From contig NZ_VCKY01000016.1 of NCBI RefSeq assembly GCF_005889735.1, forward strand, positions 1 to 64,000: a DNA stretch of 64,000 bases, written 5' to 3'. This document shows, piece after piece, positions 15,954-53,974 of the stretch. A program made the translations under genes and the position numbers. Numbering within the stretch: position 1 is the stretch's first letter; each line of letters begins with the position of its first letter. The notes under the pieces are model-generated. The model had not been told where the DNA came from, did no database searches, and saw nothing but the letters and a program-made list of their open reading frames with translations. Source of the DNA: Nonomuraea turkmeniaca (GTDB taxonomy: Bacteria; Actinomycetota; Actinomycetes; Streptosporangiales; Streptosporangiaceae).

Positions 15954-15958
15954 TCTGA

Positions 15959-15999: not shown

Positions 16000-16827
16000 C
16001 AGGAGGTCTCGGTGAGGATGAAGGCGAAGTCGGCGGCCCTGACCTCGAGCCTGTGCTGGGGAAGGACGCCGGGACCGACCGCCCCCGATCCGACGCCGTT
16101 GCACGGCGTGGTCGGTGTACAGGTAGATCAGCGGCTCGGGGACCAGGTCGGTCTGGTGCCGGGCCGCCGCGAGCCGCACCCGCCCGCCTCCATCGGAGTA
16201 GCCGGCGTGAACGAAGACGTCCCGGATTCCGCCGACGGGCCGGGCCAGCAGCGCGACGTCGCGGAAGATCCCGGACAGCCGCCAGGTGTCCTGATCCTCC
16301 AGATAAGTGCCCGACGAGTACTGGTGAACCCGGACGGCAAGGATGTTGGGGCCCGGACGCAGGGCCTGCGTGGCGTCGAACTCCACCGGTAAGCGGCTGC
16401 CCCTGGTCACCCCCAACTTCACCCCCCGTTGAGCCAGACCCGCGCGCACGAGTCCACGCCTTCGAAGCGCACCACGGCCGGGATCCCATCCCACGACCCG
16501 GGCAGATCGAAGACACGGCGATAGTCGCCGGTCTGGTTCTCGTCCGGGACGAACGGCGGGTCCACCCGGGATCGGGTAGGGGATGTTCAGATAGGCGGGC
16601 TTGCCGTACCCGTGGCGCTGCCAGTGCGAAGGGACGGGGAGCCGATCCCAGTCCTCGTCGTCGAAGGCGGGGGATTCGAAGCCGGCCGGCGCGTCGAGTC
16701 CGATCGAGGAGAAACGGAACGCCCAGTCACCGTTCAGGTCGAGCCGCGGGGCGTCGGAAGGGAGTGCGGCTCGCGGCGCGAGCTTTCCGTAGCCAGGTGA
16801 GAAGTCTTCAAAGGAGCGAGGGGACAC
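15999..16827 (-). pseudogene. GH2 beta-galactosidase relic: N-terminus joined to C-terminus
   Basis: Starts at a minus-strand GTG (16827) behind AAGAGGAA. It reads the jelly-roll opening of GH2 enzymes (LNGDWAFRFS, SHWQRHGYG..YLNIPYP, RLSGIFRDVALLARP). Two single-run changes disturb the frame: one extra base in a G run near 16567 and two in a G run near 16422, which together restore it. After DLVPEPLIYLYTDHA (about 16115) the text leaps, in another frame, to VGSGAVGPGVLPQHRLEVRA and ends ADFAFILTETS at 15999. That is the true C-terminal end of a roughly 1000-residue GH2. Some 650 codons, including the active site, are gone. Confidence 0.78.
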
Positions 16828-35247: not shown

Positions 35248-35385
35248 CAGTGTTAACTCACGCCAGTGCAGTGGGGCTCCTGCGCCAGCATGAGCTAGAT
35301 CGCGCGCCAGTGCAGTATGTCTCCTAAGCCAACGCGAGTCAGGTCGCGCGCCAGCGCAGTAGGTCTCCTGCGCTGATGAGCCGGC
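35248..35385. repeat. Degenerate 44-bp tandem repeat, three units, at the end of the minus-strand gene
   Basis: Three copies of a unit containing TCTCCTGCGC/TAAG and CCAGYGCAGT are spaced exactly 44 bp (GGCTCCT or GTCTCCT cores at 35275, 35319, 35363). The right-hand copy encodes the last residues (SAGDLLRWRAT) of the 35339-37117 gene; the other two follow the stop codon. The period is not a multiple of three, so extra copies are not read in frame. Confidence 0.75.
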
Positions 35386-37117: not shown

Positions 37118-38310
37118 CTGACGGCCTCGATGAGGGTGCTCTCCAGCGAAAGAAGGAACCACTCCATCTCGGGTTTGGGCAGGAACCGGGTGTCGGCGGT
37201 AACGGAGATGTTCAGCGGATCCGTGATGTGCACGCAGAAGCGGCAGTTGAGCATGTCCTGGCTGAGCGGCCAGGACAGGGTGGACAGGGGCCGCGCGACT
37301 GCGATCTCCTCAGGGGAGACGTCGATGGGTTCCGGGTGGCTGGATCGCATGTCGTTGAAGCAGGCCAGGGGCTGTACCCAGGATCTGTTCGCCCGGTCGG
37401 CCGGGTCGTGATAGGCGCTGCTGTACGCCCGCAGCGCCGCAGGGCGCGCCGCACGGAACCTCTCACCGAGGTCCTCATGGATGTCGAGGGTGAACAGTCC
37501 TTCTTGAGACAGGGTGCTGACCATGCGGGCCGTATCGGATCTGAACCTGTTGTGCACGATGGGCAGGATCGCGACCTTCGCGCGGCCGGTGACCTGCCCG
37601 ACGAGCGCGGCCACCGCTGTCAGCGCGACCGTGGAGGTGCTGGTCCTGTGGCGGTGGGCCAGGGCGCGTAAGGCCAGGTCCAAGGCGGGGGACGCCAGGT
37701 CGGCCCGCCAGATCGGCGGGCTGGCGGGAGCGCCGGGTGGGTTGTCGAACATGACGACCGGTTCGCACGCCTCCCAGTGCTCGGCCGCCGTACGGGCGAC
37801 CTGTCTGCCCTCGGGACTGATCTGCCAGCGGGCCAGGTCCAGCGGCTGCGGCGGGAGTGGCCCGGAGACTCTGCCGCGAACCAGTAGCATCCGAAGATCC
37901 CGCAGCGCGATGTCGCCGCCCAGGCCATCGGTGGCCATGTGGCAGAAGACCAGCACGATGCGGGTGACCTCCCCGCCGTCGGTGATCAGGCCGACGCGAA
38001 GCGGCCACTCCTTCTCGTAGTCGAAGGCCGGAGCCTCCAGTTCTTCCGGCGCTGCGCCCGGCCAGATCTCAGGTTCCGCGTGTTCTTCCACAATCTGGTA
38101 CGGCTCGCCGCCGAAGCCCAGCCGGGTGCGCAGCGCGGCATGCCTGGTCACCAGATCCTCGACGGCCTGGATGGCGCGGTCGGCACTCAGCGGCCTGGCC
38201 CGTTCTGGAACCTCGAGGATCTTGGTGAAGTTGAAGTAGTGGTCATCCGGCCTGGTGCGTTCTACGGCTTGCCATATCGCCTTCTGGCCCCAGGTCAACG
38301 GTCCGTTCAT
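37114..38310 (-). CDS. Stand-alone NRPS condensation-domain protein
   Basis: 398 residues, a single condensation domain with no attached carrier. It opens LTWGQKAIWQAVER (motif C1-like). The active-site motif is CHMATDGLGG at residues 123-132, i.e. the second, catalytic His (124) and Asp128 are present but the first His of HHxxxDG is Cys. The C-terminal lobe includes TLSWPLSQDMLNCRFCVHIT. The start lies 68 bp inside the end of the NRPS gene, so the two are translationally coupled. It could join or exchange an acyl group on a carrier, or act as a partner of the other free condensation protein (45010). Confidence 0.85.
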   Translation of the reverse strand: MNGPLTWGQKAIWQAVERTRPDDHYFNFTKILEVPERARPLSADRAIQAVEDLVTRHAALRTRLGFGGEPYQIVEEHAEPEIWPGAAPEELEAPAFDYEKEWPLRVGLITDGGEVTRIVLVFCHMATDGLGGDIALRDLRMLLVRGRVSGPLPPQPLDLARWQISPEGRQVARTAAEHWEACEPVVMFDNPPGAPASPPIWRADLASPALDLALRALAHRHRTSTSTVALTAVAALVGQVTGRAKVAILPIVHNRFRSDTARMVSTLSQEGLFTLDIHEDLGERFRAARPAALRAYSSAYHDPADRANRSWVQPLACFNDMRSSHPEPIDVSPEEIAVARPLSTLSWPLSQDMLNCRFCVHITDPLNISVTADTRFLPKPEMEWFLLSLESTLIEAVR

Positions 38311-41300
38311 GATCGATCCTTCCGATCAGGTCGTCGGGGGTCGCGTCCGGGACGTGGGTGTCGAACCTGGACAGAATCCTCGTGCGCAGCGCTCCGGCGA
38401 CCAGCAGGGCGATGAAGAGGCCGAAGGCGAGGTAGATGAGGGCGATACCACGGCCGGGTCCCGTCCCGATGATCTGGCCGACCGTTGTGGCGAGTGCCCC
38501 GCCGGGCAGCAGAAGGGGGTCGAAGGCCCTTTCCGCCAGCGGAGTCAGCACCCCGACGCCGAGCGGGATCGTGGACCAGGCCACCATCTGGTTGAGGGCG
38601 AACACCCGTCCATGGAACCGCTGAGGGATCTTGACCTGGATGATCGTGGCGTAGACGCCGTTGACCAGAGCGAGGCCGAGCGACACGCCGAACGCGCCGA
38701 TCCCGATGAGGACCAGGTCACGGGTGAGGCCGATCAGGACGCAGCACACGGCGATGATCAGGGTGAGCAGCAGCATGCCGGTCATGCGTCTGCGGCGCGG
38801 CCCACCCCACACGCTCATGGCCAGGCCGCCGGTGGCCGCTCCTGCACCGCCGCACAGGGCGATGACACCGACATCCTGCAGCGTGGCGAACGACAGGACC
38901 AGTGGCGAATAGAGCATGAAGACCGGGGAGAGCACCAATGCCAGCAGGGCGAAGAACACCACCATGGCGCGGAAGTTCTCGTTGCCGATCGAGATGCGGA
39001 AGCCTTCTTTGATCTCTGTGACCACGGGTTCCCTGCGGCGGCGGGCGAGAGTGGCGGGGAAGGTGGTGACGGCCAGAATGGCGGCCGCGATCACATATCC
39101 CGAAATATCGGCGATGAGGATGCCTTGTAGGCCGATGGTGGACATCAGGCCCACGGCTGCCAGGGGTGCGACGAACTGGGCGACACCCGCCGCCATCTGG
39201 GCGACACCATTGGCGTGTCCCAGGTAGCGCTTGGGCACCAGCTGCGGGATGGCCGAGTTGTAGCCGACCCGTTGGAAGGCCAGTGCGATCGACAGCAGGG
39301 TGAGCAGAGGGTACAGCGCCTCCACCGTAAGATTTCCGGTGAACAGCAGCCCGGCCGCGGTGGCCTGGATCACCAGCCCGGCCAGGGTCGCGGTCAGTAT
39401 CACGCCCCTGCGGCTCGACCGGTCCACCACTGCGCCTACCAGGGGAGCGGCCAGCACGCCTGGGATGACCGCCAGCACGGTGAGAAGCGCCATCTGAACC
39501 AGCTGCCCGGTTTGCAGATAGATCCAGATCGGCAGCGCGAACTCCGTGATGGTCCCGCCGGCGATCGTGGCCATCTGCCCCAACGCCACCACCAAGAACC
39601 GCCCCACACTCGGGTCCGGCAGGTCCGACTCTTGGCGGCTCCCCGGGCCCAAGTGGGTGCCGGGGGGTGCGGTGAGGATGGCGGCCAGCTCAGCCGTCCG
39701 GTACTTCTGGAAGTAGTGGCCGGCTTCGGGAATCACCGCCAGGCCGGTCCGATCGGTCAGGAACCCCCACTCCTCGTAGCGCTCCTCGTAGTAATCCGTC
39801 GTCGGATCCCGGTCGCCCACCACGGAGATGATCGGCGCGCTCAGCGGACGGGCACCTGACTCGAGCAACTCGGTGAAGTACGTCTCCGCCTGCCGCCCGT
39901 CGTGGCGCATGTTCCTGATGACGAACGCCTGTTGTTCCACATCCAGGTCACTCAGGTCGGCGCCCATCCCGGTCAGCCAGTTCAGCTGTCCCCGGTCGCT
40001 GCGCCAGCGGTCACTCCCGGTCAGGCGCGCCCATACCCCCAGGAACCCCCGCGTGGGTTTGGCGAAGGGGAACACCCCGCCTAGGTAGACCGCCTCAACG
40101 GGCCGACCGGCGCTCTCCAGCAGGCGCGCGATCTCCACGATCAGCGCGCCGCCCACTCCGCAGTGACCGTAGAGGAAGAGTGGGCCGGAGATCTTCTCCA
40201 GGATCTCGCTCACGCAGCTCTGTGCCACCTCGGCCAGCGGGCGTGGCTCTTCGGCCAGGCCGAGGTCGTGCCCGGGGACCGCCACCGAATACAGCGCCGT
40301 GTCGTCGGGTAGCCCATCGGCCAGCGGCTGGTAGACGACCGCGCTCGCGCCGCCGTACGGAACGCAGACAAAGGTCCTGTCCACCGCGCGGGGCGGTGTA
40401 AGCCGATACAGCAGTCCGCGCGGCCCTCCGCCGCCTCCTGCGATCCCGGCCAGCCCACGGACCGTGGGGTGCTGGAAGAGATCCATGACGCTGACGGGCA
40501 CATCAAGCTCCCGCGCAAGCCGGGCGATCACCCGCATCGCCAGCAGTGAGTGCCCGCCCAGGTCGAAGAAGTCGTCCAACACGCCCACCCTGGACACACC
40601 GAGCACCTCGGCCCACGTCGCCGCGATGACCTCTTCCACGCGGTTGACGGGCTTCTCGTACGGCGCCGCCTGATCGGGCCGATCCCCGGAGGGCTCAGGC
40701 AGCGCGGCCCGATCGACCTTGCCGTGCGTCTTGAGCGGCAATCGATCCAGCCAGACATACCGGGTGGGCACCATGTAGTCGGGGAGGCGGGTGCCCAGCA
40801 GCTCGCGTAGTTCGCGGGCCGGCCTTTGCTCTCCGACCAGGTAGGCGACGAGCTCCTTGGCGCCAAGCTCGCCGCGCGCGTCGACCACCGCGTGCGAGAT
40901 GCCCGGCACCTTGGCCAGGGCCTCGTCGATCTCGCCGAGTTCGACCCGGTAGCCGCGGATCTTGACTTGGAGATCCCGGCGGCCCAGGAACTCCAGGTCG
41001 CCGGAGGGCAGCCAGCGGGCCAGGTCGCCGGTGCGGTAGACGCGCTCGCCGTCGTGCTCGACGAACTTCTCGGCGGTGAGGTCCGGCCGCCCGAGGTATT
41101 CGCGTGCCAGGCGGTCGCCGCCTACACACAGTTCGCCCGCCACACCGATGGGCACGGGTCGCAGGTTCTGGTCCAGGACCATGATGCGGGCGTGCCCGAG
41201 CGGGCGGCCGATGGGCGTGATCGGGCCGCTTACGTCGTCGTCGGGTTTGACCGTGTAGGTGGTGACCCCGACGGTCGACTCGGTGGGCCCGTAGTGATTG

Positions 41301-43420
41301 ACGATCTCGCACCCGCCCAGCATGGCCAGATCGCGGGCGTAGGCCCAGCTCAACGCCTCTCCGCCGAAGATCAGCAGGCGCCGCGGGAGGAGGCGCTCGG
41401 GGGGCACGTCGGAGGCGAGGGCGGCGAAGTGCGATGGAGTGATCTTGAGGTAGTCCAGCCCGTGATCGGTGAGCTCTGGGCCGGAGATCCGCGGGGGATA
41501 CAGGTGGAGGGTGCCGCCCGTCATGAGCGCCAGGTAGAAGACGGTGATCCCGAAGTCGAAGGACAAGGACTGCAGCAGGCCGAAGCTGCGGCCGTCCTCG
41601 ACACGGAAGCGCTCCTGGACGTCCGCGAGGTAATTGAGCACCTGCCGATGCTGGATGGCCACGCCCTTCGGCTGTCCGGTCGACCCGGACGTGTAGATCA
41701 CGTAGGCGAGATCGTCGGGCCCGGCTGTCCGCTGCGGTGCGGATGATGCCACCTCTTGCGGGATGCCAAGGACCGGGCCGGAGAAGCCGCCCACCGGTCC
41801 CGCTGCGACCAGCGCCTTGGCACCGGAATCGGCCAGCAGATAGGCCAGCCGCTCGGCGGGTTGTTCTGGGTCGATGGGGACATAGGCCGCGCCCGCCTTG
41901 AGCACGCCGAGCACCGCCATGGCCAGCTCCGGCGACTGCTCCAGGCAGACCGCGACCCGGTCATCACGGCCGATGCCCAGGTCCCGCAGCCGGTGCGCGA
42001 GCGCGTTGGCCCGGCCGTCCAGTTCCTCGTAGCTCACCCGGCGGGAGCCGTACACGAGGGCGGTCTTCCCCGGCCTGACGGTGATCAGCTCGTGCAGGGC
42101 GCGTGCGGCGGGTGGGACGGGTTTGCCGCGGCCCCACTGATCGAGCAGCGCGAGTTCGGCGTCATCGGCCAGGCGCAGGTCGGACAGGCGGATCCTGGGG
42201 TCGGCGGCGACCTGTCGGAGCACGCTGGTGAAGTGCGCACAGAACCGCTCAGCGGTGGCGCGTTCAAACAGGTCGGTGCTGTAGATGAGGAAGACCCGCA
42301 GGCCGCGCGGTCCGGCCGCGACCTCCATGGCCAGGTCGAACTTCGCCCTGGCGGTGCCCGGGTCGTACGGCTCGGCCCGCACTCCTTCGAAGTCCAGCCC
42401 GCCTGCCACGTCTTCACCCATGACGAACTCGACCTGGAACAACGGCGTCCGGCTCAGGTCCCGTGGCACGTCCAGGGCGTTCACCAGCCGGTCGAACGGC
42501 ACGTCCTGGTGACGGTAGGCGGCAAGACACGTGCCGCGCACGCGGCGAAGTACGTCGGTGAAGGCAGGGTCATCGGTCAGGTCGGTACGCAGCGCAAGCG
42601 TGTTGATGTGGAAGCCGATCACCGGCTCCAGTTCCTCGCTGGTCCGGGTGGATGCCGGTGTGCCGATGCAGATGTCCTCCTGCCCGGTGTACCGGGACAA
42701 CTGGGCGGCAAAGGCCGCGAGCAGCGTCATGAACAACGAGCAGCGCTGCCGCCTGGCCAGCTCGGCGATGTCACCGGCGAGCCCGGCGGGCACAAGCATC
42801 TCCACCCGGTCTCCGGCGGAGCCCTTGATCTTCGGCCGTGGCCGGTCGGTGGGCAGTTCCAGCGGCATGACTCCGGCTAATCGGTCGAGGAGTTCCTGCG
42901 GCGGATCGGTCGGCTGAACGTGTGAAATTTCCGGCAAAGGGGGAAGAACGGCTTCTGTGCCACGGACGGTGGCGTTGTAACAGGCGGAGAGCTCGCGCAT
43001 GAGGATGCCGAGCGACCACCCGTCGGCGGCGATGTGGTGCATGACCACGATCAGGATGTGGTCCTCGGCGCCCAGACGCAGCAGGCTCGCCCGGATGACC
43101 GGATCTTCGGCAAGGTCGAAGGGGCGGGAGGTGCGGTCGGCGACCATCTCGGCCGTCGGCGCTTCCACCACTTCGAGGGGAATGCGTGGAAACGGGTCGA
43201 CCACGGCTACGGGCTCGCCGTCGTCGTCGGTGTAGCGGGTGCGCAGCACCTCGTGGCGGGCCACGACCGCGTTGAGCGCATTCTGGAGGGCATCGTGGTC
43301 GAGCGGCCCGATCAGCCGCTCGGTGATGAACATGTTGTAGGCGGCGTTGCCCGGATCGAGCCTGCTGAGGAACCACAGACGGCTCTGGCTCGACGTCAGC
43401 CCCTTGAGGCTGGTGGTCAT
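38243..43420 (-). CDS. Single-module NRPS (C-A-T-TE) fused to an MFS transporter
   Basis: 1725 residues from ATG 43420 behind AGGGGG; the frame is open for 46 more codons upstream but those lack protein character. Condensation domain about 1-430 with MHHIAADGWS (His128-His129, Asp133). Adenylation domain about 450-920 with YTSGSTGQPKG (576-586) and NHYGPTEST; specificity residues read by eye as D-F-T-K-I-G-H-V-G-K, close to the aspartate code DLTKVGHIGK. Carrier with DLGGHSL, Ser958. Thioesterase about 1000-1240 with GHCGVG, so the nucleophile is Cys1087, not Ser. Residues about 1270-1690 form a 10-12-helix major facilitator (LPIWIYLQTGQLVQM, PQRFHGRVFALNQMVAW). The enzyme would activate one amino acid, condense it with a carrier-bound acyl group, release it and, by inference, export it through the fused pump. 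Confidence 0.92.
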   Translation of the reverse strand: MTTSLKGLTSSQSRLWFLSRLDPGNAAYNMFITERLIGPLDHDALQNALNAVVARHEVLRTRYTDDDGEPVAVVDPFPRIPLEVVEAPTAEMVADRTSRPFDLAEDPVIRASLLRLGAEDHILIVVMHHIAADGWSLGILMRELSACYNATVRGTEAVLPPLPEISHVQPTDPPQELLDRLAGVMPLELPTDRPRPKIKGSAGDRVEMLVPAGLAGDIAELARRQRCSLFMTLLAAFAAQLSRYTGQEDICIGTPASTRTSEELEPVIGFHINTLALRTDLTDDPAFTDVLRRVRGTCLAAYRHQDVPFDRLVNALDVPRDLSRTPLFQVEFVMGEDVAGGLDFEGVRAEPYDPGTARAKFDLAMEVAAGPRGLRVFLIYSTDLFERATAERFCAHFTSVLRQVAADPRIRLSDLRLADDAELALLDQWGRGKPVPPAARALHELITVRPGKTALVYGSRRVSYEELDGRANALAHRLRDLGIGRDDRVAVCLEQSPELAMAVLGVLKAGAAYVPIDPEQPAERLAYLLADSGAKALVAAGPVGGFSGPVLGIPQEVASSAPQRTAGPDDLAYVIYTSGSTGQPKGVAIQHRQVLNYLADVQERFRVEDGRSFGLLQSLSFDFGITVFYLALMTGGTLHLYPPRISGPELTDHGLDYLKITPSHFAALASDVPPERLLPRRLLIFGGEALSWAYARDLAMLGGCEIVNHYGPTESTVGVTTYTVKPDDDVSGPITPIGRPLGHARIMVLDQNLRPVPIGVAGELCVGGDRLAREYLGRPDLTAEKFVEHDGERVYRTGDLARWLPSGDLEFLGRRDLQVKIRGYRVELGEIDEALAKVPGISHAVVDARGELGAKELVAYLVGEQRPARELRELLGTRLPDYMVPTRYVWLDRLPLKTHGKVDRAALPEPSGDRPDQAAPYEKPVNRVEEVIAATWAEVLGVSRVGVLDDFFDLGGHSLLAMRVIARLARELDVPVSVMDLFQHPTVRGLAGIAGGGGGPRGLLYRLTPPRAVDRTFVCVPYGGASAVVYQPLADGLPDDTALYSVAVPGHDLGLAEEPRPLAEVAQSCVSEILEKISGPLFLYGHCGVGGALIVEIARLLESAGRPVEAVYLGGVFPFAKPTRGFLGVWARLTGSDRWRSDRGQLNWLTGMGADLSDLDVEQQAFVIRNMRHDGRQAETYFTELLESGARPLSAPIISVVGDRDPTTDYYEERYEEWGFLTDRTGLAVIPEAGHYFQKYRTAELAAILTAPPGTHLGPGSRQESDLPDPSVGRFLVVALGQMATIAGGTITEFALPIWIYLQTGQLVQMALLTVLAVIPGVLAAPLVGAVVDRSSRRGVILTATLAGLVIQATAAGLLFTGNLTVEALYPLLTLLSIALAFQRVGYNSAIPQLVPKRYLGHANGVAQMAAGVAQFVAPLAAVGLMSTIGLQGILIADISGYVIAAAILAVTTFPATLARRRREPVVTEIKEGFRISIGNENFRAMVVFFALLALVLSPVFMLYSPLVLSFATLQDVGVIALCGGAGAATGGLAMSVWGGPRRRRMTGMLLLTLIIAVCCVLIGLTRDLVLIGIGAFGVSLGLALVNGVYATIIQVKIPQRFHGRVFALNQMVAWSTIPLGVGVLTPLAERAFDPLLLPGGALATTVGQIIGTGPGRGIALIYLAFGLFIALLVAGALRTRILSRFDTHVPDATPDDLIGRIDHERTVDLGPEGDMASRRTHQAG

Positions 43421-43594
43421 CGTCCGACCGCCCCCTAACTGGAAACCTTGTTTCCTATTTTGGTCAGGGTCAGTGTGGCATTTGCCGGAGCTAGTGCGCA
43501 AGGCGGCCAAATTCCCTAGTTTTACGGGCTTGCGGCCACGTTTGTGATCATGCAACACTGGACCAAACCCAAATAGTAAAGATTCTTTCTAATT
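43421..43594. promoter_or_regulatory. Divergent promoter region of the biosynthetic locus
   Basis: 174 bp, clearly richer in A/T than the surrounding genes, separating the minus-strand NRPS from the plus-strand ligase operon. It contains an inverted repeat GGAAAC-CTT-GTTTCC (43441-43455) just upstream of the NRPS start. The ligase ATG at 43595 has no convincing Shine-Dalgarno sequence, so translation may be leaderless or weak. No pathway regulator is encoded next to it. Confidence 0.55.
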
Positions 43595-45013
43595 ATGACG
43601 ACTCTCCTCCAGCTCCTCGACACCCGGGCGGCCTCCGAGCCGGATCGGGTGGCCTTGATCGTTCCGGGTGCCGAGCCGCTGACCCATGGACAATGGGCGG
43701 AACGGTCGCGCCGGGCGGCGTCCGGGCTGGTGGACAGGGGAGTCAAGCCAGGCGATCGGGTCGGCCTGGTGTTCGGGGCCGCTGCTTGGCCGGACTACGC
43801 GGTGGCCTTCATGGCTGTGCTCAGGGCGGGTGCGGCAGCCGTACCACTGTCTGCTCGTTTAGCCCCTGCCGACCTGCGGTTCAAGCTCCACCACTGCGAC
43901 ACCGTCGGTGTCATACACACCGGCGGCGCTCCGGACGCTCCAGGCTGGACGGCCAGGCTTGATGACCTGTGGGGGTCCGCCGAACTGCCGGATCCCAAGC
44001 CGGCGGATCTCGCGCAGGTCCTCTACACCTCAGGCACCACGGGGAGTCCCAAAGGGGTGACCGCTACGCATGCGAATCTGGTCTGGGGATGCGGCGGGCG
44101 GCGCCGGCCCTTCGCTCACTCCCGGCATCTGGTCCACGGCTTCCCCATCGGGACGAACGCCGGCCAGCAGATGTTGATCAATGCGCTCGACGCGCACCCG
44201 GCCGTGGTCACCTTGCCGTGGTTCACACCCGATCGATTCGCCGCACTGATCGAGACTCACCGTGCCGGTACGGTCTTCCTCGTTCCCGCGATGGCCATCG
44301 AACTGCTCAGCGCCCGCGTCCACGAGGAACACGACCTGTCCAGCGTGCTCCTTCTCGGGTCGGCCGCCGCGCCGCTGCCCGGCCGCGTGGCCGCCGACCT
44401 GTGCCGGGTCTTCCCGAAGGCGACGATCGCCAACTACTACACCTCGACCGAAGCGGCGCCTGCCCAGACCGTCATGATCTACGACCCTGAGCGGCCAGGG
44501 AGCCTGGGGCGTGCGGCGGCGGGATCCGCCGTGAAGATCGCCACTGCCGACGGCGAACCGCTGCCGTCCAACAGCACCGGCGAGGTGTGGATGCGCTCGC
44601 CCGTCTCCCGCTCCTACTACGGCGACCAGGGGTCGAAGGTGTTCCAGCGCGGCTGGGTGCGGATGGGCGACCTGGGATACCTGGATGAGGAGGGCTACCT
44701 CTACCTCGTCGACCGGGAGAGCGACGTGATCAAATCAGGGGGATTCAAGGTCTCCACCATCCAGGTCGAGGAGGCCGTCTACGCCTGCCCCGGCGTCGTC
44801 GAGGCCGCTGCGGTCGCGATCCCGCACGCCATGCTCGGCAAGGCGGTCATGGTCGCGGTCGTCGGCAGCGTCACGCAGAAGGACCTACGGATCTTCCTCA
44901 AGGACCGGCTGGCCGCGCACGAGCTGCCTGTCAAGGTGATCACCGTCGACTCCATTCCCCGCAATCACAACGGCAAGGTCGACAAGCGAGCACTGCGTGA
45001 GGCTGTCACGTGA
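43595..45013 (+). CDS. AMP-dependent acyl/aminoacyl ligase (stand-alone adenylation enzyme)
   Basis: 472 residues of the ANL superfamily. P-loop YTSGTTGSPKGVT near residues 148-160, ANYYTSTEAAPAQ as the A5 region, GYLYLVDRESDVIKSGGFKV as the A8 hinge, and the catalytic Lys in PRNHNGKVDKRAL. It is shorter than NRPS adenylation domains with C-terminal carriers and looks like a class I acyl-CoA/acyl-ACP ligase. It is the first gene of the plus-strand operon and overlaps the condensation gene by 4 bp (GTGA). Its probable job is to charge the free carrier at 46143 or another thiol with an acid. Confidence 0.88.
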   Translation: MTTLLQLLDTRAASEPDRVALIVPGAEPLTHGQWAERSRRAASGLVDRGVKPGDRVGLVFGAAAWPDYAVAFMAVLRAGAAAVPLSARLAPADLRFKLHHCDTVGVIHTGGAPDAPGWTARLDDLWGSAELPDPKPADLAQVLYTSGTTGSPKGVTATHANLVWGCGGRRRPFAHSRHLVHGFPIGTNAGQQMLINALDAHPAVVTLPWFTPDRFAALIETHRAGTVFLVPAMAIELLSARVHEEHDLSSVLLLGSAAAPLPGRVAADLCRVFPKATIANYYTSTEAAPAQTVMIYDPERPGSLGRAAAGSAVKIATADGEPLPSNSTGEVWMRSPVSRSYYGDQGSKVFQRGWVRMGDLGYLDEEGYLYLVDRESDVIKSGGFKVSTIQVEEAVYACPGVVEAAAVAIPHAMLGKAVMVAVVGSVTQKDLRIFLKDRLAAHELPVKVITVDSIPRNHNGKVDKRALREAVT

Positions 45014-46146
45014 GCGAGGTCAGCTTCATCCAGCACGGCATCTGGATCAACGAGCAGCTGGGGGCGGGTACCGCCTACCGGATGCCCATCGTGATCACCT
45101 TCGCCGCGGCGCCCGAGCCCGCAGCCCTGGCCAAGGCCATCGACCAGCTGGTCGAGCGGCACCCGATGCTGGGCTCGGCGATCGAGGAACGAGACGGCGT
45201 GCTCCACCTGGTGCCCGCGGCCCGCAGACCCGCACTGGGCGCGTCGTACGAGCTCGACATCGACACCGGGCCGCTGATCACCTTCACGCTCAACGGACGG
45301 ACACTGACGATCGTCGCCCACCATGTGATCTTCGATGGTGCGTCCAAGGAGATCCTGGTCGACGACCTGGCCGCATTCCTCGACGGCACTCCGCCGCCGC
45401 CTCTTGCCGCGCACGACCACGCGGCCGGCCTCCGGCAGCGGGTCGCTGCCCGGCTTGAGGCCGCCAAGGAGTTCTGGGCGAGCAGGTGGCGAGAGCCGCA
45501 GGAGATAGTCGTCGCAGGGAAGACGGTGCGCGGCCGGAGGTTCAGCGCAGGCCACGAGCACAGGTTCTCGCTGGAGGTGCCCAGGGTGCCGGGGCTGACG
45601 CGGTTCGAGGTGTTCGTGGCGGCACTGCACACCCTGCTTCATGAGTACGGCAACGCCGAGATCGTCACCGCCATCGACCTGTCGACGCGCTCCGTCGCCG
45701 AGGAGGGACACGTCGGTCCCTTCGTCAACGAGGTGCCGCTGTTCTCATCGCTTGATGGACCTTTCGAGAATCTCGCGGCCGGGCTGCGGGCCGAGCTGCG
45801 GCAGCTGTACCGCTTCCGCGAGGTGCCGCTGGCCAGGGCCGTCCCGCGCATCAGGCCGCACGCCTCGCTGGCGCCGATCTCGGTCAGCTACCGCCACGGG
45901 GGACGGCAGCCGCCGTGGGGAAACGTGGAGTGGCTGACGTTCAACGGCGCTGTACGCGGAGCCTTGCAGCTCCAGCTCCTGGATGCGCCGGACGGGCTGC
46001 TGGCCGGCCTCCGCTACAGCCAGGAGGCAGACGACGTGGCGGAGATCTTCTCCAGGGATCTGGCTGAAGTCCTGGGGCGTGTCGCGGCCGTTTCTCCCGG
46101 GGAGCTGCCCGCATTTACCGAAATATCAGACAAGTCAACGGGGTGA
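45010..46146 (+). CDS. Stand-alone condensation-domain protein
   Basis: 378 residues beginning SEVSFIQHGIWINEQLG (C1-like motif). The active site is intact: AHHVIFDGAS, His104-His105 and Asp109. The later part VGPFVNEVPLFSSLDGPFEN corresponds to the C5 region. No carrier or adenylation domain attached. The GTG start overlaps the ligase stop, and the gene overlaps the carrier-protein start (GTGA at 46143). It should catalyse amide or ester formation between a carrier-bound acyl group and an acceptor; the neighbours suggest the carrier at 46143 as donor. Confidence 0.86.
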   Translation: MSEVSFIQHGIWINEQLGAGTAYRMPIVITFAAAPEPAALAKAIDQLVERHPMLGSAIEERDGVLHLVPAARRPALGASYELDIDTGPLITFTLNGRTLTIVAHHVIFDGASKEILVDDLAAFLDGTPPPPLAAHDHAAGLRQRVAARLEAAKEFWASRWREPQEIVVAGKTVRGRRFSAGHEHRFSLEVPRVPGLTRFEVFVAALHTLLHEYGNAEIVTAIDLSTRSVAEEGHVGPFVNEVPLFSSLDGPFENLAAGLRAELRQLYRFREVPLARAVPRIRPHASLAPISVSYRHGGRQPPWGNVEWLTFNGAVRGALQLQLLDAPDGLLAGLRYSQEADDVAEIFSRDLAEVLGRVAAVSPGELPAFTEISDKSTG

Positions 46147-46385
46147 GTTCTGTGCTGGACAACGCTGTCGTAGATCCGCGAGCCGCGGAGATCCGGGCCA
46201 TTTGGGAGGAGGTCCTGGAAATCTCGCCGATCGCCTTGGATGACGACATTTTCGACCTTGGCGCCCACTCCCTGACCATCACGCAGATCATCGCGCGCAT
46301 GCGCAAGCGCCTGGGCGTGGAGGTGAACATCGAAGACTTCTTCGACAACCCCACCATCCGCGGCGTGCTCGAGGTTCTGAAGTGA
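46143..46385 (+). CDS. Free-standing acyl/peptidyl carrier protein
   Basis: 80 residues. Four-helix carrier with the phosphopantetheine site DIFDLGAHSLTITQII, Ser43, preceded by IRAIWEEVLEISPIALDDD and followed by NIEDFFDNPTIRGVLEVL. The pattern is that of NRPS-type carriers rather than fatty-acid ACP. GTG start overlapping the upstream stop; its own stop overlaps the E1alpha start (GTGA at 46382). Its place between a condensation protein and a 2-oxoacid dehydrogenase set suggests it receives the acyl unit made by that complex. Confidence 0.92.
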   Translation: MSSVLDNAVVDPRAAEIRAIWEEVLEISPIALDDDIFDLGAHSLTITQIIARMRKRLGVEVNIEDFFDNPTIRGVLEVLK

Positions 46386-47254
46386 CCGAGCTGCTGGATC
46401 GCAGCGTCGATGAGGACCTGGAGCTGATGCTCACGATCAGGGCCTTCGAGCGCAAACTCCTGGAGCTGTACGGCCAGGGCCTACTCAACGGCACCACCCA
46501 CACCTGCCTGGGCCAGGAGTACGTGCCGGTCGCCTTGGAAGCCCTCCTGCTTGCCGACGACTACGTCTTCAGCAACCACCGAGGCCACGGCCACTATCTG
46601 GCTCGGTTCGGCGATCTCGAGGGGCTGCTGGCCGAGATCATGGGCCGCCAGGGCGCGGTCTGCGGTGGCGTCGGCGGCAGTCAGCACATCAAACGGGGCC
46701 GCTACCTGTCCACGGGAGTCCAGGGGGAGTCGCTCCCGGTGGCCGCGGGGGTGGCGCTCCACCTGAAAAGAACCGAGCCAGGCCGCCTGGCCTGCGTCTA
46801 CATCGGCGACGGAACGCTCGGCGAAGGCGCGGTCTACGAGGCTCTCAACATCGCCGCCCTCTGGCGGCTACCGCTCCTGGTGATCGTGGAGAACAACGGC
46901 ATCGCCCAGACCACCCCCGCGGGCATACACCTGGCAGGCAGCGTCGCGGGACGGGCCGCCGCCTTCGGGATCGCGTATCAGCGCGTAGACACCGTCGACG
47001 TGGCCGCGATCCGCGACCGACTTGCCATGCCGGTGGCCGCAGTCCGAACCGGATCGCCGCTGGTCGTCGAGTTCGTCACCCATCGCCTGGGCCCGCACAG
47101 CAAGGGCGACGACACCCGGCCGCCCGAGGTCCTGCGCGCGGTCGAAGACTGGCAGGCGGCGGTGGATCCGGCGCAATCGGAACGCCTGGAGCGCCGGGCA
47201 CGCGCCCGCGTGGAGCAGGTCGTCGCCGAAGTGATCATGCGGGGACCGGCATGA
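46382..47254 (+). CDS. Thiamine-diphosphate 2-oxoacid dehydrogenase E1, alpha subunit
   Basis: 290 residues. The ThDP-binding motif GDGTLGEGAVYEALN through VIVENNGIAQ (GDG...NN) lies at about residues 140-175, preceded by THTCLGQEYVPVALEALL and SNHRGHGHYLARFGD with the active-site His pair. It resembles the E1alpha of pyruvate/acetoin-type complexes but is shorter (usual 320-370), lacking most of the phosphorylation-loop extension. Starts with GTG overlapping the carrier stop and overlaps E1beta by 4 bp. It would decarboxylate a 2-oxoacid, or take a ketol unit from a sugar phosphate, and pass the acyl group to lipoyl-E2. Confidence 0.9.
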   Translation: MTELLDRSVDEDLELMLTIRAFERKLLELYGQGLLNGTTHTCLGQEYVPVALEALLLADDYVFSNHRGHGHYLARFGDLEGLLAEIMGRQGAVCGGVGGSQHIKRGRYLSTGVQGESLPVAAGVALHLKRTEPGRLACVYIGDGTLGEGAVYEALNIAALWRLPLLVIVENNGIAQTTPAGIHLAGSVAGRAAAFGIAYQRVDTVDVAAIRDRLAMPVAAVRTGSPLVVEFVTHRLGPHSKGDDTRPPEVLRAVEDWQAAVDPAQSERLERRARARVEQVVAEVIMRGPA

Positions 47255-48216
47255 GAGTGGCCGAGAACCTCAACGCGGCCCTGCACTCGCTGCTGGCCGC
47301 CCGGCCCGACCTCTACGTGCTCGGCGAGGACATCCTCGACCCGTACGGCGGTGCCTTCAAGATCACAAAGGGATTGTCCAGTCGGTTTCCCGACCGCGTG
47401 CTCACCACACCCATCAGCGAAAACGCCATCACCGGCGTGGCGGCAGGGCTGGCCCTGGCGGGCGACGAGGCGATCGTCGAGATGATGTTCGGCGACTTCA
47501 TCGCTCTAGCCTTCGACCAGCTCGTGAACTTCGCCAGCAAGTCCGTCACCATGTACGGCTCGCGCCTGCCCTTACGCATGGTGGTGCGCTGCCCGGTCGG
47601 CGGTGGCCGCGGATATGGCCCCACCCACAGCCAGAGTCCGCAGAAACACTTCATCGGGATCCCGAACCTGGCGCTGTACGAGGTTTCGCCGTTCCGCGAC
47701 AACCTCGAGGTGTTCGCCGAGATGCTGGGCCGCGGTGAACCATGCATCCTGTTCGAGGGCAAGGTGCTCTACACCCGGCAAATGCACGCGGTGCCCGAGC
47801 CGTTCACCGTACGCCTCGATGACGGGGTGGCAACCGTCTTTGTCGAGAAAAATCCGGATTTCGTGCTGATCGCTCCGGGTGGGATGGCCTATCAAGCCCT
47901 CGAGGCGATGCAGACGTTACTCATGGAGGACGATCTGCTCGGCACCTTGATCGTGCCCTCCCGGCTTTATCCGTTCGAGGTGGACGTGCCGGATGTGCCG
48001 TACCTCTTCGTGGTGGAAGAGAGCACCGCAGGGGGAACGTGGGGGGCCGAGGTGGCCCTTGGCCTGAACCAGGAACGCTGGGGGCGGCTGGCCCAGCCGG
48101 TCACGGTGATCCACTCGCAGGACAGCATCATCCCGGCGGCGGTCCACCTGGAAGACCAGGTCCTGGCGAACGAGGCGGCCATCCGGCGCGTGATCAAGGA
48201 GACCCTCCGTGGCTGA
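47251..48216 (+). CDS. 2-oxoacid dehydrogenase E1, beta subunit
   Basis: 321 residues with the transketolase pyrimidine-binding and C-terminal domains: LGEDILDPYGGAFKITKGL, TTPISENAITGVAAGLALAG (catalytic Glu activating ThDP), GGGRGYGPTHSQSPQKHFIG, and VFVVEESTAGGTWGAEVALG-like text at the end. It pairs with E1alpha at 46382. The 4-bp ATGA overlap with E1alpha and the 8-bp overlap with E2 show strict co-expression. No E3 (dihydrolipoamide dehydrogenase) gene follows; either a housekeeping E3 is used or no net oxidation is needed. Confidence 0.92.
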   Translation: MRVAENLNAALHSLLAARPDLYVLGEDILDPYGGAFKITKGLSSRFPDRVLTTPISENAITGVAAGLALAGDEAIVEMMFGDFIALAFDQLVNFASKSVTMYGSRLPLRMVVRCPVGGGRGYGPTHSQSPQKHFIGIPNLALYEVSPFRDNLEVFAEMLGRGEPCILFEGKVLYTRQMHAVPEPFTVRLDDGVATVFVEKNPDFVLIAPGGMAYQALEAMQTLLMEDDLLGTLIVPSRLYPFEVDVPDVPYLFVVEESTAGGTWGAEVALGLNQERWGRLAQPVTVIHSQDSIIPAAVHLEDQVLANEAAIRRVIKETLRG

Positions 48217-49222
48217 GCTTCGCATGCCCAAGCTGAACTCCAACGACGCCGAATATCTGCTGGTGGAGTGGCTGGTCCCCGACGGAACAGAGGTCAAGGC
48301 CGACGACGTGGTGGTGTCGGTGGAGACCTCCAAGGCCGTCGAAGAACTCACCGCGGACGCCGACGGCCCCCTTCACCACATCGCCGCTCCTGGCACCTGG
48401 TGCAAACCCAACGAACTCATCGCCAATATCGACCCCGCGCCGTCCCTATCCCCTGCGCGCCCGTCCGAGAAGGCCTTGTCCAGCACTGGGACTTCGCTCA
48501 TTACCGCGCCCGCGCAGGCCCTAATGGACGAGCTGGGTATCTCTCGTGAACAGGTCGAAACACTCGGTCGCAAGGTGATCCGCAGGACGGACATCGAGCA
48601 GTTGAAGCCGCACGGCATCAAGCTGTCCAAGGTCCAGCACGCTGTGGCCAGGGCTGTGGAGCTGTCTCACCAGGCGATCCCGGCGGCGTACACCGTCGTT
48701 CGGATGAACCTGTGCCCCGCGCTGGAGAGAGCGGCCGCGGCGACTCGCGAAATTCGCCGCCCGGTCGGTGTCGCAGAACTCTTCGTCCAGGCCGTGGCCA
48801 CGATGCACGCCGACTTCCCGCTGTTCTTCTCCCACATCGATGGCGATCAAGCCATACCCGCCACAAGCCCGAACGTCGGCATCACGGTGGACGTGGGCGA
48901 GGGCTTGTACGTCCCAGTCCTGCATGACCCGGGCGGCCTGAAGGAGATCGCCACCACCCTGATGAAGTACCGGGTGGCCGCCGCGTCCGGTTCGTTCAAG
49001 GAAGCCGACCTCAGCGGCGCCAACTTCATGATCACCCTCCACACCGAAGGCGAAGTGGTATTGGCGATCCCCTTTGTTTTCCCCGGCACCACTTGCGCGC
49101 TGGCCGTCGCCTCGCCCGGTGAGTCCACCTACGTCGGACTCGCCTATGACCATCGCCTGATCAACGGCCGGGAGGTCGCCCTCTTCCTCGCCGAGCTCCG
49201 CCGCCGCATGGAAGCGCTATAG
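48209..49222 (+). CDS. Lipoyl-bearing E2 acyltransferase
   Basis: 337 residues, GTG start at 48209. An N-terminal lipoyl domain (VVVSVETSKAVEEL, lipoyl Lys42) is followed by a Pro/Ala/Ser linker, a peripheral-subunit-binding domain around residues 105-145 (ITAPAQALMDELGISREQV), and the catalytic acyltransferase domain ending YDHRLINGREVALFLAELRR. The catalytic His315 is present, but the usual DHRxxDG has Asn319 in place of Asp. Single lipoyl domain and short length fit a specialised, not housekeeping, E2. In this locus the acyl acceptor may be the phosphopantetheine of the carrier at 46143 instead of CoA; that is inference. Confidence 0.9.
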   Translation: MAELRMPKLNSNDAEYLLVEWLVPDGTEVKADDVVVSVETSKAVEELTADADGPLHHIAAPGTWCKPNELIANIDPAPSLSPARPSEKALSSTGTSLITAPAQALMDELGISREQVETLGRKVIRRTDIEQLKPHGIKLSKVQHAVARAVELSHQAIPAAYTVVRMNLCPALERAAAATREIRRPVGVAELFVQAVATMHADFPLFFSHIDGDQAIPATSPNVGITVDVGEGLYVPVLHDPGGLKEIATTLMKYRVAAASGSFKEADLSGANFMITLHTEGEVVLAIPFVFPGTTCALAVASPGESTYVGLAYDHRLINGREVALFLAELRRRMEAL

Positions 49223-51302: not shown

Positions 51303-51943
51303 CCGTACTGACACAGAAGTCGCTGTCCCTGTTCACCGCCGTGGGCGGCTGGCGCACCGTCGCCGAGGCCGTGGTGTCGAAGACGGTGTTCTTGATCGCC
51401 CATCTGCTGACCGGCCAGGTGCCGCTCTCCGCGACGGTGGCGGTCGGTGCCGTGGTGGTGTTCGCGATCGTCCGAACGTGCACCGACCGCAAGTACTGGC
51501 AGGCGGCGGGCGGGCTCGTGATCGTGGCGGTGGCCGCGTCGCTGGCCAGCAGCAGCGGAGAGGCGGTGGACTTCTACCTTGTGAGCGTGTTGGTTTCGGT
51601 GGGCGCGGGGGCGGTGTTCCTGGTGTCTTTGCTGGTGCGGTGGCCGATCATTGGAGTGGTGGTCGGGGGGATGCGCGGTGAACGGTCCGGCTGGCGGCGC
51701 GATCGGGCGCGGTTGCGGCGCTACCAGGCCTGCACGGCGGTGTTCCTGGTGAAGTTCAGCCTGTCCACGATGGTGATGGTGCCGCTGTACCTGGCGGGTC
51801 AGGTGACCGCGCTCGGAATCGCCTCGACGTTGCTGGGCACGCCCGCGACGGGCCTGTGCGCGTACGTGTGCTGGCGGATCCTGCGCACCGAAGCGGATTC
51901 CACCGGGTCCGATCCGGCCATCACCGCACCGAGCCATGGTTGA
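51293..51943 (+). CDS. DUF3159-like membrane protein
   Basis: 216 residues with about five hydrophobic helices (VVSKTVFLIAHLLTGQVPLS, ATVAVGAVVVFAIVRTC, GGLVIVAVAASLASSS, YLVSVLVSVGAGAVFLVSLL, and a C-terminal pair). The stretch WPIIGVVVGGMRGERSGWRR followed by RYQACTAVFLVKFSLSTMV matches the actinobacterial DUF3159 family of unknown function. It begins inside the end of the monooxygenase gene, so it shares its TetR control. Confidence 0.75.
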   Translation: MPLTVLTQKSLSLFTAVGGWRTVAEAVVSKTVFLIAHLLTGQVPLSATVAVGAVVVFAIVRTCTDRKYWQAAGGLVIVAVAASLASSSGEAVDFYLVSVLVSVGAGAVFLVSLLVRWPIIGVVVGGMRGERSGWRRDRARLRRYQACTAVFLVKFSLSTMVMVPLYLAGQVTALGIASTLLGTPATGLCAYVCWRILRTEADSTGSDPAITAPSHG

Positions 51944-52412
51944 GAGCGGTCTTCCCGCCATCGAGCGGGTTCGGGCCGAGCACCACCGGGAACCGTGCTG
52001 GAAGATCGCTTCCCGAACGTACGTTGATCGTTTGCTGAGAATCAATGTGATGACAAGATCCTCGCGATGCCGGACACTGGCCAGATGGATGACGCAGCTC
52101 ACCACACCTCAGCAGGGCCGCGTCGCAAGGATGGCCTGGGAGCGGCCGCTGGCCGAGGCCGCGCAGATGGCCGGTGAACGGTATCCGTTCCGGCCGCGCC
52201 GCACGATGCCGCAGGCCAGGAACCTCATCAACCCCTGGTGCGCCGACCATCGGCCGACCGGCGGTTTGCCTGCGCTGTCGTCTGGGCTCCGGCGCGATCG
52301 TGGTCACCGTCCCCGATACGGAGCGGTTGATCGTCTGCCGCGCCGTCTGCTGCTCAGTGCCGTGGGCGTCGAGCAGCCAGGGCAAAGATTCGGGCTCCGG
52401 CGAGGGGTTCGC
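51944..52412. other. Gene-poor stretch
   Basis: Both strands have open frames here but none with convincing codon use or family pattern. A forward piece at 52180-52260 (TMPQARNLINPWCADHRPTG) looks protein-like in isolation. Probably debris between the DUF3159 gene and the PL11 relic. Confidence 0.35.
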
Positions 52413-52620
52413 ATGAGTTTCACCGAGCACGACGTCCAAGAATGCCGCCGCCTGATGATCGGCTGCCGCGTCAACCAGCTGGCCATCGGCGACATCCTGG
52501 CGGCCGAATGGGCCGACAACACCGACATCGCCGCCGGCGTCATGATCCCCGACGGTCGCCGGCTGCGGCGGGCTGTCGGGGTCGTCCGCGTGATCGCGGC
52601 CGATCGGGGCGATCGTCTGG
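52413..52620 (+). pseudogene. N-terminal fragment of an unknown protein
   Basis: From ATG 52413: MSFTEHDVQECRRLMIGCRV, NQLAIGDILAAEWADNTDIA, AGVMIPDGRRLRRAVGVV. Codon third positions are almost all G/C, as in real genes of this window, but the protein-like text fades near 52620 where minus-strand PL11 coding begins. Family not recognised. Truncated by the same junction that removed the PL11 C-terminus. Confidence 0.4.
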
Positions 52621-53974
52621 AGCGGTTCATGCCGTCGGGTGTCGGAGCTGGTTTCGTACTTGTCGATTCTGGTCTGGTCGAGCAGTTCCCTGACCGGGTC
52701 GGCGTCCCACCAGGCGAGGAAGTTGATGGAGGACGGTTTGCGGCCCGCCGTGTTGCCGGTGACGCTGCGCAGGTTGCCGTCGGCGGCCGACCAGAACTCA
52801 CTGGCGATCCTGACCGTCGAGATGTCCCCGGCCACGCCGCGGCCGTTGTCGGAGCCCGAGGCGGTGGACCAGAGGATCTGGCCGGTGCGTGGGTCGATGT
52901 AGAGCGAGCCGGGCTGGGAGGTGGACTCGCTGACCTTGAAGTACTCGAGGCCCGACCGGGCGGGGTCGAAGTCGCCCAGGTGCTGGGCGTCCCCATGGCC
53001 GGTGCGCGTGCTCCACATGCCGGTGCCGTTGTCGTTCACGGCCATCGCGCCGTACACGATCTCGTCGCGGCCGTCGGCGTCGACGTCGCCGACGGACAGG
53101 CTGTGGCTGCCCTGCCCGGCGTACTGCGAGCCCGCCGAGTTGCTGTCGAACGTCCACCGCTTGGTGAGCGTGCCGTTGCAGAAGTCCCAGGCGGCGATGA
53201 CGCTGCGGGTGTAGTAGCCGCGGGCCATGATGAGCGAGGGGCGTTCGCCGTCCAGGTACGCCGTTCGGGCCAGGAAGCGGTCCACGCGGTTGCCGTAGTT
53301 GTCGCCCCAGGAGGAGACCGTGCCGCGTGGCGGGTCGTAGTTGACCGTGGACATCGCGGCGCCGGTCAGGCCGTTGAACATGGTCAGGTACTCGGGGCCG
53401 GCCAGGATGTAGCGGCTGGAGTTGCGGTGGTCGGCGCTGGAGTTGCCGATCACGGTGCCGGCGCCGTCCCTGGTGCCGTCGGCGGTTTTCATGGCGACCT
53501 CGGCCCGGCCGTCGCCGTCGTAGTCGTACACCTGGAACTGGGTGTAGTGGGCGCCCGCGCGGATGTTGCGGCCCAGGTCGATGCGCCACAGCCGGGAGCC
53601 GTTCAGGCGGTAGGCGTCCACGTAGGCGTTGCCCGTGTAGCCGGACTGGGAGTTGTCCTTGGCGTTGGACGGGTCCCACTTCAGGATGATCTCGTACTGC
53701 CCGTCGCCGTCCACGTCTCCCACGCTGGCGTCGTTCGCGCTGTAGGTGAAGGCGACCCCCTGGTGGAGCCGCGGTACACGTTGAACGCGACGCCGTCGGG
53801 GTCGGTGCCCAGTAAGCGCAAGGACACGAGGTTGCCCGAGCCGGACCGTACGCTGATCAGCCCGCGATCCAGGTCCTCCATCTGCTTGGTGGGCGGGGCC
53901 GCCTGAGCGGGAGCCACGGTCGTGGTCGTGGCCGCTGCGAGGGTGAGGACGGCGGCGGCCATTCTTAACCGCAT
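52620..53974 (-). pseudogene. PL11 rhamnogalacturonan lyase, internally deleted and C-truncated
   Basis: ATG 53974 gives a signal peptide (MAAAVLTLAAATTTTVAPAQ) and the family opening MEDLDRGLISVRSGSGNLVS to VAFNVYRGSTR. At about 53770 the frame changes and text resumes with YSANDASVGDVDGDGQYEII, NAYVDAYRLNGSRLWRIDLG, QFQVYDYDGDGRAEVAMKTA, SLSVGDVDADGRDEIVYGAM, all typical PL11 propeller/Ca-binding blades. About 80 codons are lost at this joint. It breaks off after LLDQTRIDKYETSSDTR (about 52620), lacking the last 90 or so residues. It was secreted and would have cleaved pectin rhamnogalacturonan I. Confidence 0.85.

Follow-up and report, generated by a model that had tools for sequence, protein, structure and literature searches.

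We analyzed a stretch of 64,000 nucleotides of the genome of Nonomuraea turkmeniaca (hereafter the window: positions 1 to 64,000 of contig NZ_VCKY01000016.1, C77 in our numbering, in a genome of 11.35 Mb). It carries an operon where proteins resembling the E1 and E2 components of 2-oxoacid dehydrogenases are encoded together with a free carrier protein and a condensation protein of the kind found in nonribosomal peptide synthetases (NRPS). We propose, with a probability of roughly 0.6, that this E1/E2 set loads glycolyl on the carrier and thereby feeds a module composed of condensation (C) and carrier (T) domains, without adenylation (A) domain, whose products would be acyloxyacetyl peptides. 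The proposal builds on direct observations concerning the gene set, the recurrence of its order in other genomes, the family to which its proteins belong, and the key residues that they retain.

An overlapping run from ligase to E2

Six genes of the + strand form a continuous run in which adjacent genes, from the ligase to E2, overlap by 4, 4, 4, 4, and 8 bases. Hence, the earlier note made on this DNA was right in describing one operon with every junction overlapping by 4-8 bp. The run starts with an adenosine monophosphate (AMP)-dependent acyl ligase (43595-45013, Pfam AMP-binding, 3e-60), followed by a free-standing condensation protein with the motif HHVIFDG (45010-46146, Pfam Condensation, 1.7e-23), a carrier of 80 residues of the peptidyl carrier protein (PCP) type (46143-46385, Pfam PP-binding, 8e-20), the thiamine pyrophosphate (TPP)-binding E1alpha (46382-47254, Pfam E1_dh, 6.5e-44), E1beta with its pyrimidine domain (47251-48216, Pfam Transket_pyr, 2e-22), and E2, with lipoyl and acyltransferase domains (48209-49222, Pfam Biotin_lipoyl, 9.5e-10, and 2-oxoacid_dh, 1e-23). 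Counting in the translations confirmed the two attachment residues named in the earlier note, i.e., Ser43 of the carrier (LGAHS) and Lys42 of E2, the lipoyl lysine, which lies within ETSKA. The note had also remarked on the lack of an E3 gene. Accordingly, none of the 35 matches to the lipoamide-dehydrogenase model found genome-wide is on C77, and the two that score above the model cut-off are both elsewhere.

Carriers and condensation domains accompany the E1/E2 family

Relatives of the window E1beta are present in 94 of the 297 genomes of the order (E-values up to 1e-40). At 1e-50, 16 of the 394 genomes of the class have one (14 of these, counting the window genome, belong to the same family as the window), as do 19 of the 392 genomes of one other genus. 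Our sample comprised 80 E1beta neighborhoods chosen among the matches in the genomes of the order, 20 more from wider scans, and named loci (the best 80 of at least 553 confirmed). Twenty housekeeping E1beta neighborhoods and the outgroups L116, L117, L118, and L164 served as 24 controls. This gave 201 stretches, window included, and 150 family loci once 2 stretches without E1beta, 25 with a repeated E1beta, and the 24 controls were set aside. Neighborhoods were analyzed with a codon-usage gene caller and profile searches. For carriers, the profiles came from the window carriers and from small frames picked by motif in the family loci, and detection is thus tuned to these loci.

A carrier gene was found within 9 kb, on either strand, in 136 of the 150 family loci and in 1 of the 24 controls (Fisher p = 5e-18, to be taken as a guide only, given the relatedness of the loci and the origin of the profiles in the family itself). 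With the more stringent criterion of 3 kb and the same strand the counts are 97/150 and 0/24. C domains are within 9 kb in 109 family loci and A domains in 108, against none of the controls. Moving L164 from the controls into the family, where the tree places it (see below), results in carrier counts of 136/151 and 1/23. The gene order that the earlier note proposed to seek in other genomes does recur, hence it is more than a chance arrangement, and the use of a carrier by the E1/E2 set is supported. Homologues lying mostly away from carrier and condensation genes, which would have spoken against the link, are the opposite of what we found. Of the 14 family loci in which the profiles detected no carrier, L104 and L249 have one by eye, and L090 and L181 are short stretches.

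Some loci of the sample have other settings. L180, L185, L195, L202, and L210, from records titled Saccharopolyspora, Lentzea, Nocardia, and Streptomyces, encode E1alpha-E1beta-E2 of the family, with no NRPS gene seen nearby and with a recurring protein of 362 residues of unrecognised kind. We also note that NZ_LT559118.1, a circular record of 11.85 Mb of Nonomuraea gerenzanensis, is listed as "plasmid I" and is probably the chromosome.

The C-T pair before E1alpha

In 53 of the 150 family loci, C and T domains directly precede E1alpha. A single open frame encodes both domains in 41 of these loci, and separate frames do in 12, including the window, whose condensation protein corresponds to the C half of the fused pairs. 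An A or ligase domain precedes the pair in 51 of the 53 loci, and the full order ligase-C-carrier-E1alpha-E1beta-E2 occurs in at least 10 named genera. This wiring is thus part of the E1/E2 family, not the whole of it.

The carriers of these pairs are a recognizable class. They have the motif LGGHSLTIT in 44 of the 53 loci, with variants in the others, and 158 of their 159 nearest-neighbor picks (below 75% identity) fall within the class. The window carrier, which reads LGAHSLTIT, groups with them. The motif LGGHSLTIT or LGGHSLSIT was also present in twelve carriers classed as NRPS, which presumably are C-T pairs at loci where E1/E2 lie apart. The window carrier is not of the WTSL type of the carriers in loci that stand in for NapC, QncM, and SclQ1, and is 22-26% identical to the carriers of three other loci (L184, L156, and L163). 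In L087, L095, L100, L101, and L103 a PCP-type carrier is found with E1/E2 and no ligase was found within the stretch; in L100, a glycosyltransferase gene separates the carrier from E1alpha.

Key residues and predicted structure

The window E1/E2 set retains the key residues of the TPP, lipoyl, and acyltransferase sites. The corresponding motifs are SNHRGHGH, GDGTLGEG, and GPHSKGDDTR in E1alpha, and TPISE and GPTHSQS in E1beta. The predicted model of E2 (mean pLDDT 90, pTM 0.61), together with the alignment, delimits the lipoyl domain with Lys42, a small helical domain around residues 100-132, and an acyltransferase domain of the chloramphenicol acetyltransferase fold with His315 and Asn319, after which the sequence ends. 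All matches listed by Foldseek for this model are E2 proteins or E2-containing models. Since the key residues are retained and the model has the fold of an E2, we expect the protein to transfer acyl groups onto a phosphopantetheine arm.

The E2 motif HxxxDG reads HxxxNG in 143 of the 150 family loci (the position is T in one, G in one, and was not seen in five), and the same position is D, D, and Q in three other E2 of the genome. We considered the change from Asp to Asn as a sign of an altered acceptor and dropped the idea, since titles of PDB entries tie Asn614 to E2 catalysis in what we take to be an Azotobacter protein. An Asn at this position thus suits an ordinary E2 as well and serves only as a marker of the family.

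Placement among known E1/E2 sets

We built a tree from concatenated E1alpha and E1beta sequences (66 taxa, 614 columns, LG+G4; supports are given as printed after re-rooting). The family, including RenH, is split from the housekeeping E1 with an ultrafast bootstrap (UFBoot) support of 100%. The window E1 is in one branch with RenH, with loci of the dnacin and quinocarcin type, and with a locus of the scleric acid type. RenH is outermost in this branch, followed by L164 (90), a Streptomyces E1alpha/E1beta pair whose E1beta is 40% identical to that of the window and near which no E2 or carrier was found. An ordinary housekeeping dehydrogenase (pyruvate or branched-chain 2-oxoacid) was rejected on account of this separation and of the linkage to carriers; the window E1beta is 29% identical to another E1beta of the same genome, on C584.

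SclQ, Nap, and Qcn were compared through stand-ins chosen by gene content, L184 for the scleric acid type and L156 for the dnacin/quinocarcin type. The window and L184 proteins are 65% (E1alpha), 56% (E1beta), and 38% (E2) identical. These values are about equal to those published for SclQ2/QncN (61%), SclQ3/QncL (51%), and SclQ4/QncL (37%) (PMC6335953).

L184, from Streptomyces sp. CBMA152, encodes an isochorismatase, a DAHP synthase, an anthranilate synthase, a thioesterase (TE), a C-A-PCP protein, an acyl carrier protein (ACP), E1alpha, E1beta, E2, and a phosphopantetheinyl transferase. Its A domain has the code DVQYCAMV, which we read as Pro. No gene of the ATP-grasp enzyme SclG was seen in the stretch, which ends just past the isochorismatase. 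This gene content is of the scleric acid kind (PMC6335953). L156 encodes a UvrA-like protein, a FAD hydroxylase (486 aa), E1alpha (312 aa), an ACP (91 aa), a fused E1beta-E2 (734 aa), and a beta-ketoacyl-ACP synthase III (KASIII, 334 aa). In kind and size these match the dnacin proteins DinU (306 aa), DinT (76 aa), DinS (754 aa), DinQ (KASIII, 336 aa), and DinW (486 aa), among which DinS and DinU were tied to a hydroxyethyl unit derived from xylulose-5-phosphate and handed to DinT (PMC7570522). Hence, the link made in the earlier note to the E1/E2 kind of naphthyridinomycin and quinocarcin is supported by identities, gene content, and tree.

The same branch includes sets in polyketide settings. 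In L182, L241, L147-L151, and L249, E1/E2 are beside ketosynthase-like or KASIII/ACP genes, recognized by Pfam for L148 and by frame starts and sizes for L182, L241, L147, L149-L151, and L249. Because of these neighbors, the E1/E2 loader may prime polyketide lines too. In L277, on plasmid p-YT9A of Paenibacillus polymyxa (Bacillota), E2, ACP, E1alpha, and E1beta, the last of which is annotated as hypothetical, sit among type I polyketide synthase and thioester-reductase genes.

The divergent operon, the ligase, and ACP2

The ligase is separated by 174 bases (43421-43594) from a second, divergent operon on the - strand. Its first gene encodes a synthetase with the domains C-A-T-TE and a C-terminally fused exporter of the major facilitator superfamily (MFS) (38243-43420; an alternative upstream start at 43558 is possible, and the Pfam run was made on the 38243-43558 frame). 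It is followed by a second free-standing condensation-like protein with the motif CHMATDG (37114-38310, -, Pfam Condensation, 3e-12) and by a DMFA2_C-domain protein resembling the beta subunit of N,N-dimethylformamidase (35339-37162, -, by Pfam; the codon-usage gene caller starts it at 37042), which recurs alongside the second C protein. The Pfam scan covered 19 window proteins. An unrelated rhamnogalacturonan lyase of family 11 (51921-53723, -) lies to the right of the cluster, and positions 1-16000 hold frames resembling sugar-transport and glycosidase genes (by frame starts only), also unrelated. The ligase and the divergent C-A-T-TE-MFS gene were absent from the earlier note.

The ligase has the code NAQFGAYPA, without Asp at position 235, hence it is not of the amino-acid type. 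The code of the synthetase, DFTKIGHVG, looks Asp-like. Among the 150 family stretches, 57 encode a protein with the architecture C-A-T-TE-MFS, 67 have an ordered C-then-T pair, and 41 have both. A code of the DFTKIGHVG kind was found in 40 of the 55 A domains of the C-A-T-TE-MFS proteins, and codes that we take to be Ser-like in 8. Among the 144 remaining domains, 74 have the ligase-type code NAxFGAYPA, 34 have DILQLG, presumably Gly-like, and 12 have DTED, presumably Lys-like. The TE nucleophile is Cys instead of Ser (YGHC) in the window synthetase and in 56 of the 57 C-A-T-TE-MFS proteins. Thioesterases with Cys are known from the release of beta-lactones and beta-lactams.

In many relatives the second condensation-like protein adjoins a small carrier, ACP2, which in L056 lies between the ligase and synthetase genes. 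ACP2 is present in 40 of 60 ligase-C-T stretches; of the 20 without it, some may be too short to include it. In the window genome it is found on two other contigs. C566 (L283) carries a fuller paralogous cluster. There, the ligase, C-T, ACP2, and second C are joined by modules of the Gly- and Lys-like kind, by C-A-T-TE-MFS, and by an E1/E2 set of the cluster's own, whose E1alpha is truncated where the contig ends. C188 (L282) has the second C, ACP2, an MbtH-like protein of 61 residues (identified by eye), and C-A-T-TE-MFS, with no E1/E2 within the fetched stretch.

Proposed mechanism and alternatives

We suggest that the E1/E2 set loads a carrier in the manner of NapB-NapD, QncN-QncL, and SclQ2-4. 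The TPP bound to E1 would take up two carbons of a donor, most probably as dihydroxyethyl derived from a ketose phosphate, and pass them to the lipoyl arm of E2, whose acyltransferase would move the resulting glycolyl to the phosphopantetheine of the 80-residue carrier, not to coenzyme A (CoA). The housekeeping E3 would then re-oxidise the lipoyl arm. Since the E1/E2 complex would replace the adenylation domain, the carrier and the condensation protein would form a C-T module that does without one. The ligase would activate a carboxylic acid, and the C protein would esterify the hydroxyl of glycolyl with the acyl group derived from it, giving acyloxyacetyl-S-carrier. Finally, the C-A-T-TE-MFS synthetase would add an amino acid, Asp-like according to its code, then release and export the acyloxyacetyl-amino acid or peptide. 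We infer the ketose substrate, the identity of glycolyl, the ester bond, the amino acid, and the product from the comparisons presented above. The expected product would be of the acyloxyacetyl-Asp type here, and of the acyloxyacetyl-Gly-Lys-like-Asp/Ser type in the larger relatives.

The earlier note had regarded the acyl unit as a starter. Its views on E1/E2 kinship and carrier use are supported; that on the starter role is not, given the position of the carrier directly behind a C domain. In NRPS logic, such a carrier holds the acceptor, which needs a nucleophile. Glycolyl has a hydroxyl and plain acyl groups have none, which makes glycolyl the better fit. Hence, the loaded unit is likely a bridge, acylated from the side of the ligase and then passed to the synthetase.

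Several observations weigh against this proposal. We know of no biochemistry on a member of the C-T type. Crown order in the tree is weak (support of 22-60 at several deep nodes), and L164, which had served as a control, sits within the branch itself, placed after RenH and before the remaining members. The window carrier is 22% identical to that of L184, the locus of the scleric acid type, and the free carriers that precede E1alpha outside C-T pairs are scattered, 23 of their 36 nearest-neighbor picks being NRPS carriers. Inspection of L180, L185, L195, L202, and L210 revealed no carrier, and L074, L083, L146, L182, and L241 are ambiguous in this respect. No KASIII partner (NapE) is among the 19 scanned proteins of the window. 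The absence of ACP2 and the response of scleric acid production to glycolic acid, both described below, count against the proposal as well. In addition, the solved structures closest in sequence to the window E1 are 2-oxoacid enzymes. These structures would suit an E1/E2 set that decarboxylates pyruvate, 2-oxobutyrate, or a branched 2-oxoacid to put on the carrier a plain acyl group capping the peptide, as would the precedent of pepteridine, with its E1 and E2-NRPS fusion (PMC5384830). We regard this version as unlikely, given that the tree groups the set with RenH and with the quinocarcin- and scleric-acid-type loci, and that a T domain behind a C domain holds the acceptor, a role for which a plain acyl group would lack the nucleophile.

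The proximity of the ligase raises another question. The ligase gene belongs to the overlapping run that includes C and T, nearly all C-T pairs of the family have an A or ligase domain ahead of them, and deletion of sclQ1-4 left residual scleric acid while feeding of glycolic acid restored production (PMC6335953). This could mean that the ligase charges the C-T carrier and that E1/E2 charge another carrier or only supply a CoA thioester or a free acid. We find this quite improbable, since E1/E2 have a PCP-type carrier right alongside in some stretches in which our searches revealed no ligase, and since carriers accompany E1/E2 in polyketide and tetrahydroisoquinoline-like settings. Finally, ACP2 is absent from C77 (motif scan of 30-55 kb and search of the own genome), and the carrier serving the window ligase may be supplied in trans. 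The window copy may borrow ACP2, manage without it, or be in decay. In the last case, the cluster, decaying or silent in part, would have lost ACP2 and would depend on the paralogous cluster of C566 or duplicate its function. The presence of ACP2 on C566 and C188 agrees with this, as does a frame near the left edge that, given weak HTH_32 and HTH_21 matches (both below their cut-offs), could be a transposase remnant. In contrast, the frames are open, the junctions intact, and the key residues kept, which makes decay very improbable; it would anyway be compatible with a glycolyl loader feeding a C-T module.

Novelty and comparison with known systems

The charging of a carrier with glycolyl by E1/E2 is already known, and the principle appears less new than the earlier note held, since scleric acid (PMC6335953) and pepteridine (PMC5384830) precede it. 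What appears new is the coupling to the C-T pair and the gene set, as a variant of this loading principle. Among the papers listed in our literature searches, we found no account of an E1/E2-fed C-T module, of the ligase-C-T-E1-E2 operon, or of its product, and no Nonomuraea product of the C-T type; the follow-up paper on scleric acid (PMC13307308) leaves this unchanged. The suggestion of the earlier note that the product class may be new therefore stands. We tentatively go further, at odds that we put a little below even, and propose a new type of module, a C-T without A domain where a ketose-fed complex resembling 2-oxoacid dehydrogenases places a bridging glycolyl ester within an acyl-peptide, widespread in Streptosporangiaceae, with a Cys-type TE fused to an exporter, and producing an undescribed family of acyloxyacetyl peptides. 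If this is true, one enzyme complex replaces an adenylation domain and feeds sugar carbon as a hydroxy-acid extender, and the group of acyloxyacetyl peptides would become predictable and findable. The separate small proteins would also be a clean system to study ketose-to-carrier transfer.

Pepteridine (plu2792-2799) was compared by description. There, in the proposed scheme, E1/E2 resembling pyruvate dehydrogenase charge an NRPS carrier directly, replacing CoA, and this carrier then acts as donor towards a free pterin; production is tied to 2-oxobutyrate and pyruvate (PMC5384830). Like in the window, E1/E2 come with a carrier and E3 is from the host; unlike in the window, the T and C domains are fused to E2, the acceptor is a free pterin, and the substrate is a 2-oxoacid (PMC5384830). 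We did not retain a cluster of this type, as there is no E2-T-C fusion and no pteridine gene among the 19 scanned proteins.

The E1alpha, E1beta, and E2 of naphthyridinomycin, dnacin, and quinocarcin (NapB-C-D-E, DinU-T-S-Q, QncN-M-L) share the branch of the window via stand-in loci, and these sets are said to move hydroxyethyl or glycolyl from a ketose phosphate to an ACP (PMC7570522, PMC9268379, PMC6335953). They differ by a fused E1beta-E2, a KASIII (NapE/DinQ), and a reductase-ended NRPS building the tetrahydroisoquinoline core, none of which was seen in the window, and by the WTSL-type carriers of the stand-in loci. A cluster for a tetrahydroisoquinoline antibiotic was rejected, since E1beta and E2 are separate, the synthetase ends in TE-MFS, and there is no KASIII or UvrA among the 19 scanned proteins. 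RenH is annotated on plasmid p-ren of the sponge symbiont Candidatus Endohaliclona renieramycinifaciens. It is 44% identical to the window E1alpha, RenI is a lipoyl E2, and the motifs HSKGDDTR and ETSK are common to both systems. Unlike the separate genes of the window, RenH is a fused E1alpha-E1beta.

Like the window, the scleric acid system of Streptomyces sclerotialus (SclQ1-4) has separate E1alpha, E1beta, and E2 with a free carrier (PMC6335953, PMC13307308). SclQ1-4 are proposed to supply glycolyl, which a single C-A-PCP module joins to an amino acid and whose hydroxyl ends up acylated. Scleric acid is benzoyl-O-CH2-CO-Pro, with glycolyl between benzoyl and proline, and its ester bond is proposed to come from an ATP-grasp enzyme (PMC6335953). 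A scleric acid cluster as such was discarded, for the 19 scanned proteins include no product of benzoate genes and no ATP-grasp SclG, and the A code is Asp-like, not Pro. The two loci differ in the carrier (an ACP in scl, of the PCP type and behind a C domain in the window), in the enzyme that handles the acyl group (ATP-grasp esterification against an AMP-ligase), in the module (Pro against Asp-like), and in the benzoate genes of scl and the TE-MFS fusion of the window. By analogy with the scleric acid skeleton, a glycolyl bridge is possible in the window as well, and the proposed product would be comparable to scleric acid, i.e., benzoyloxyacetyl-proline.

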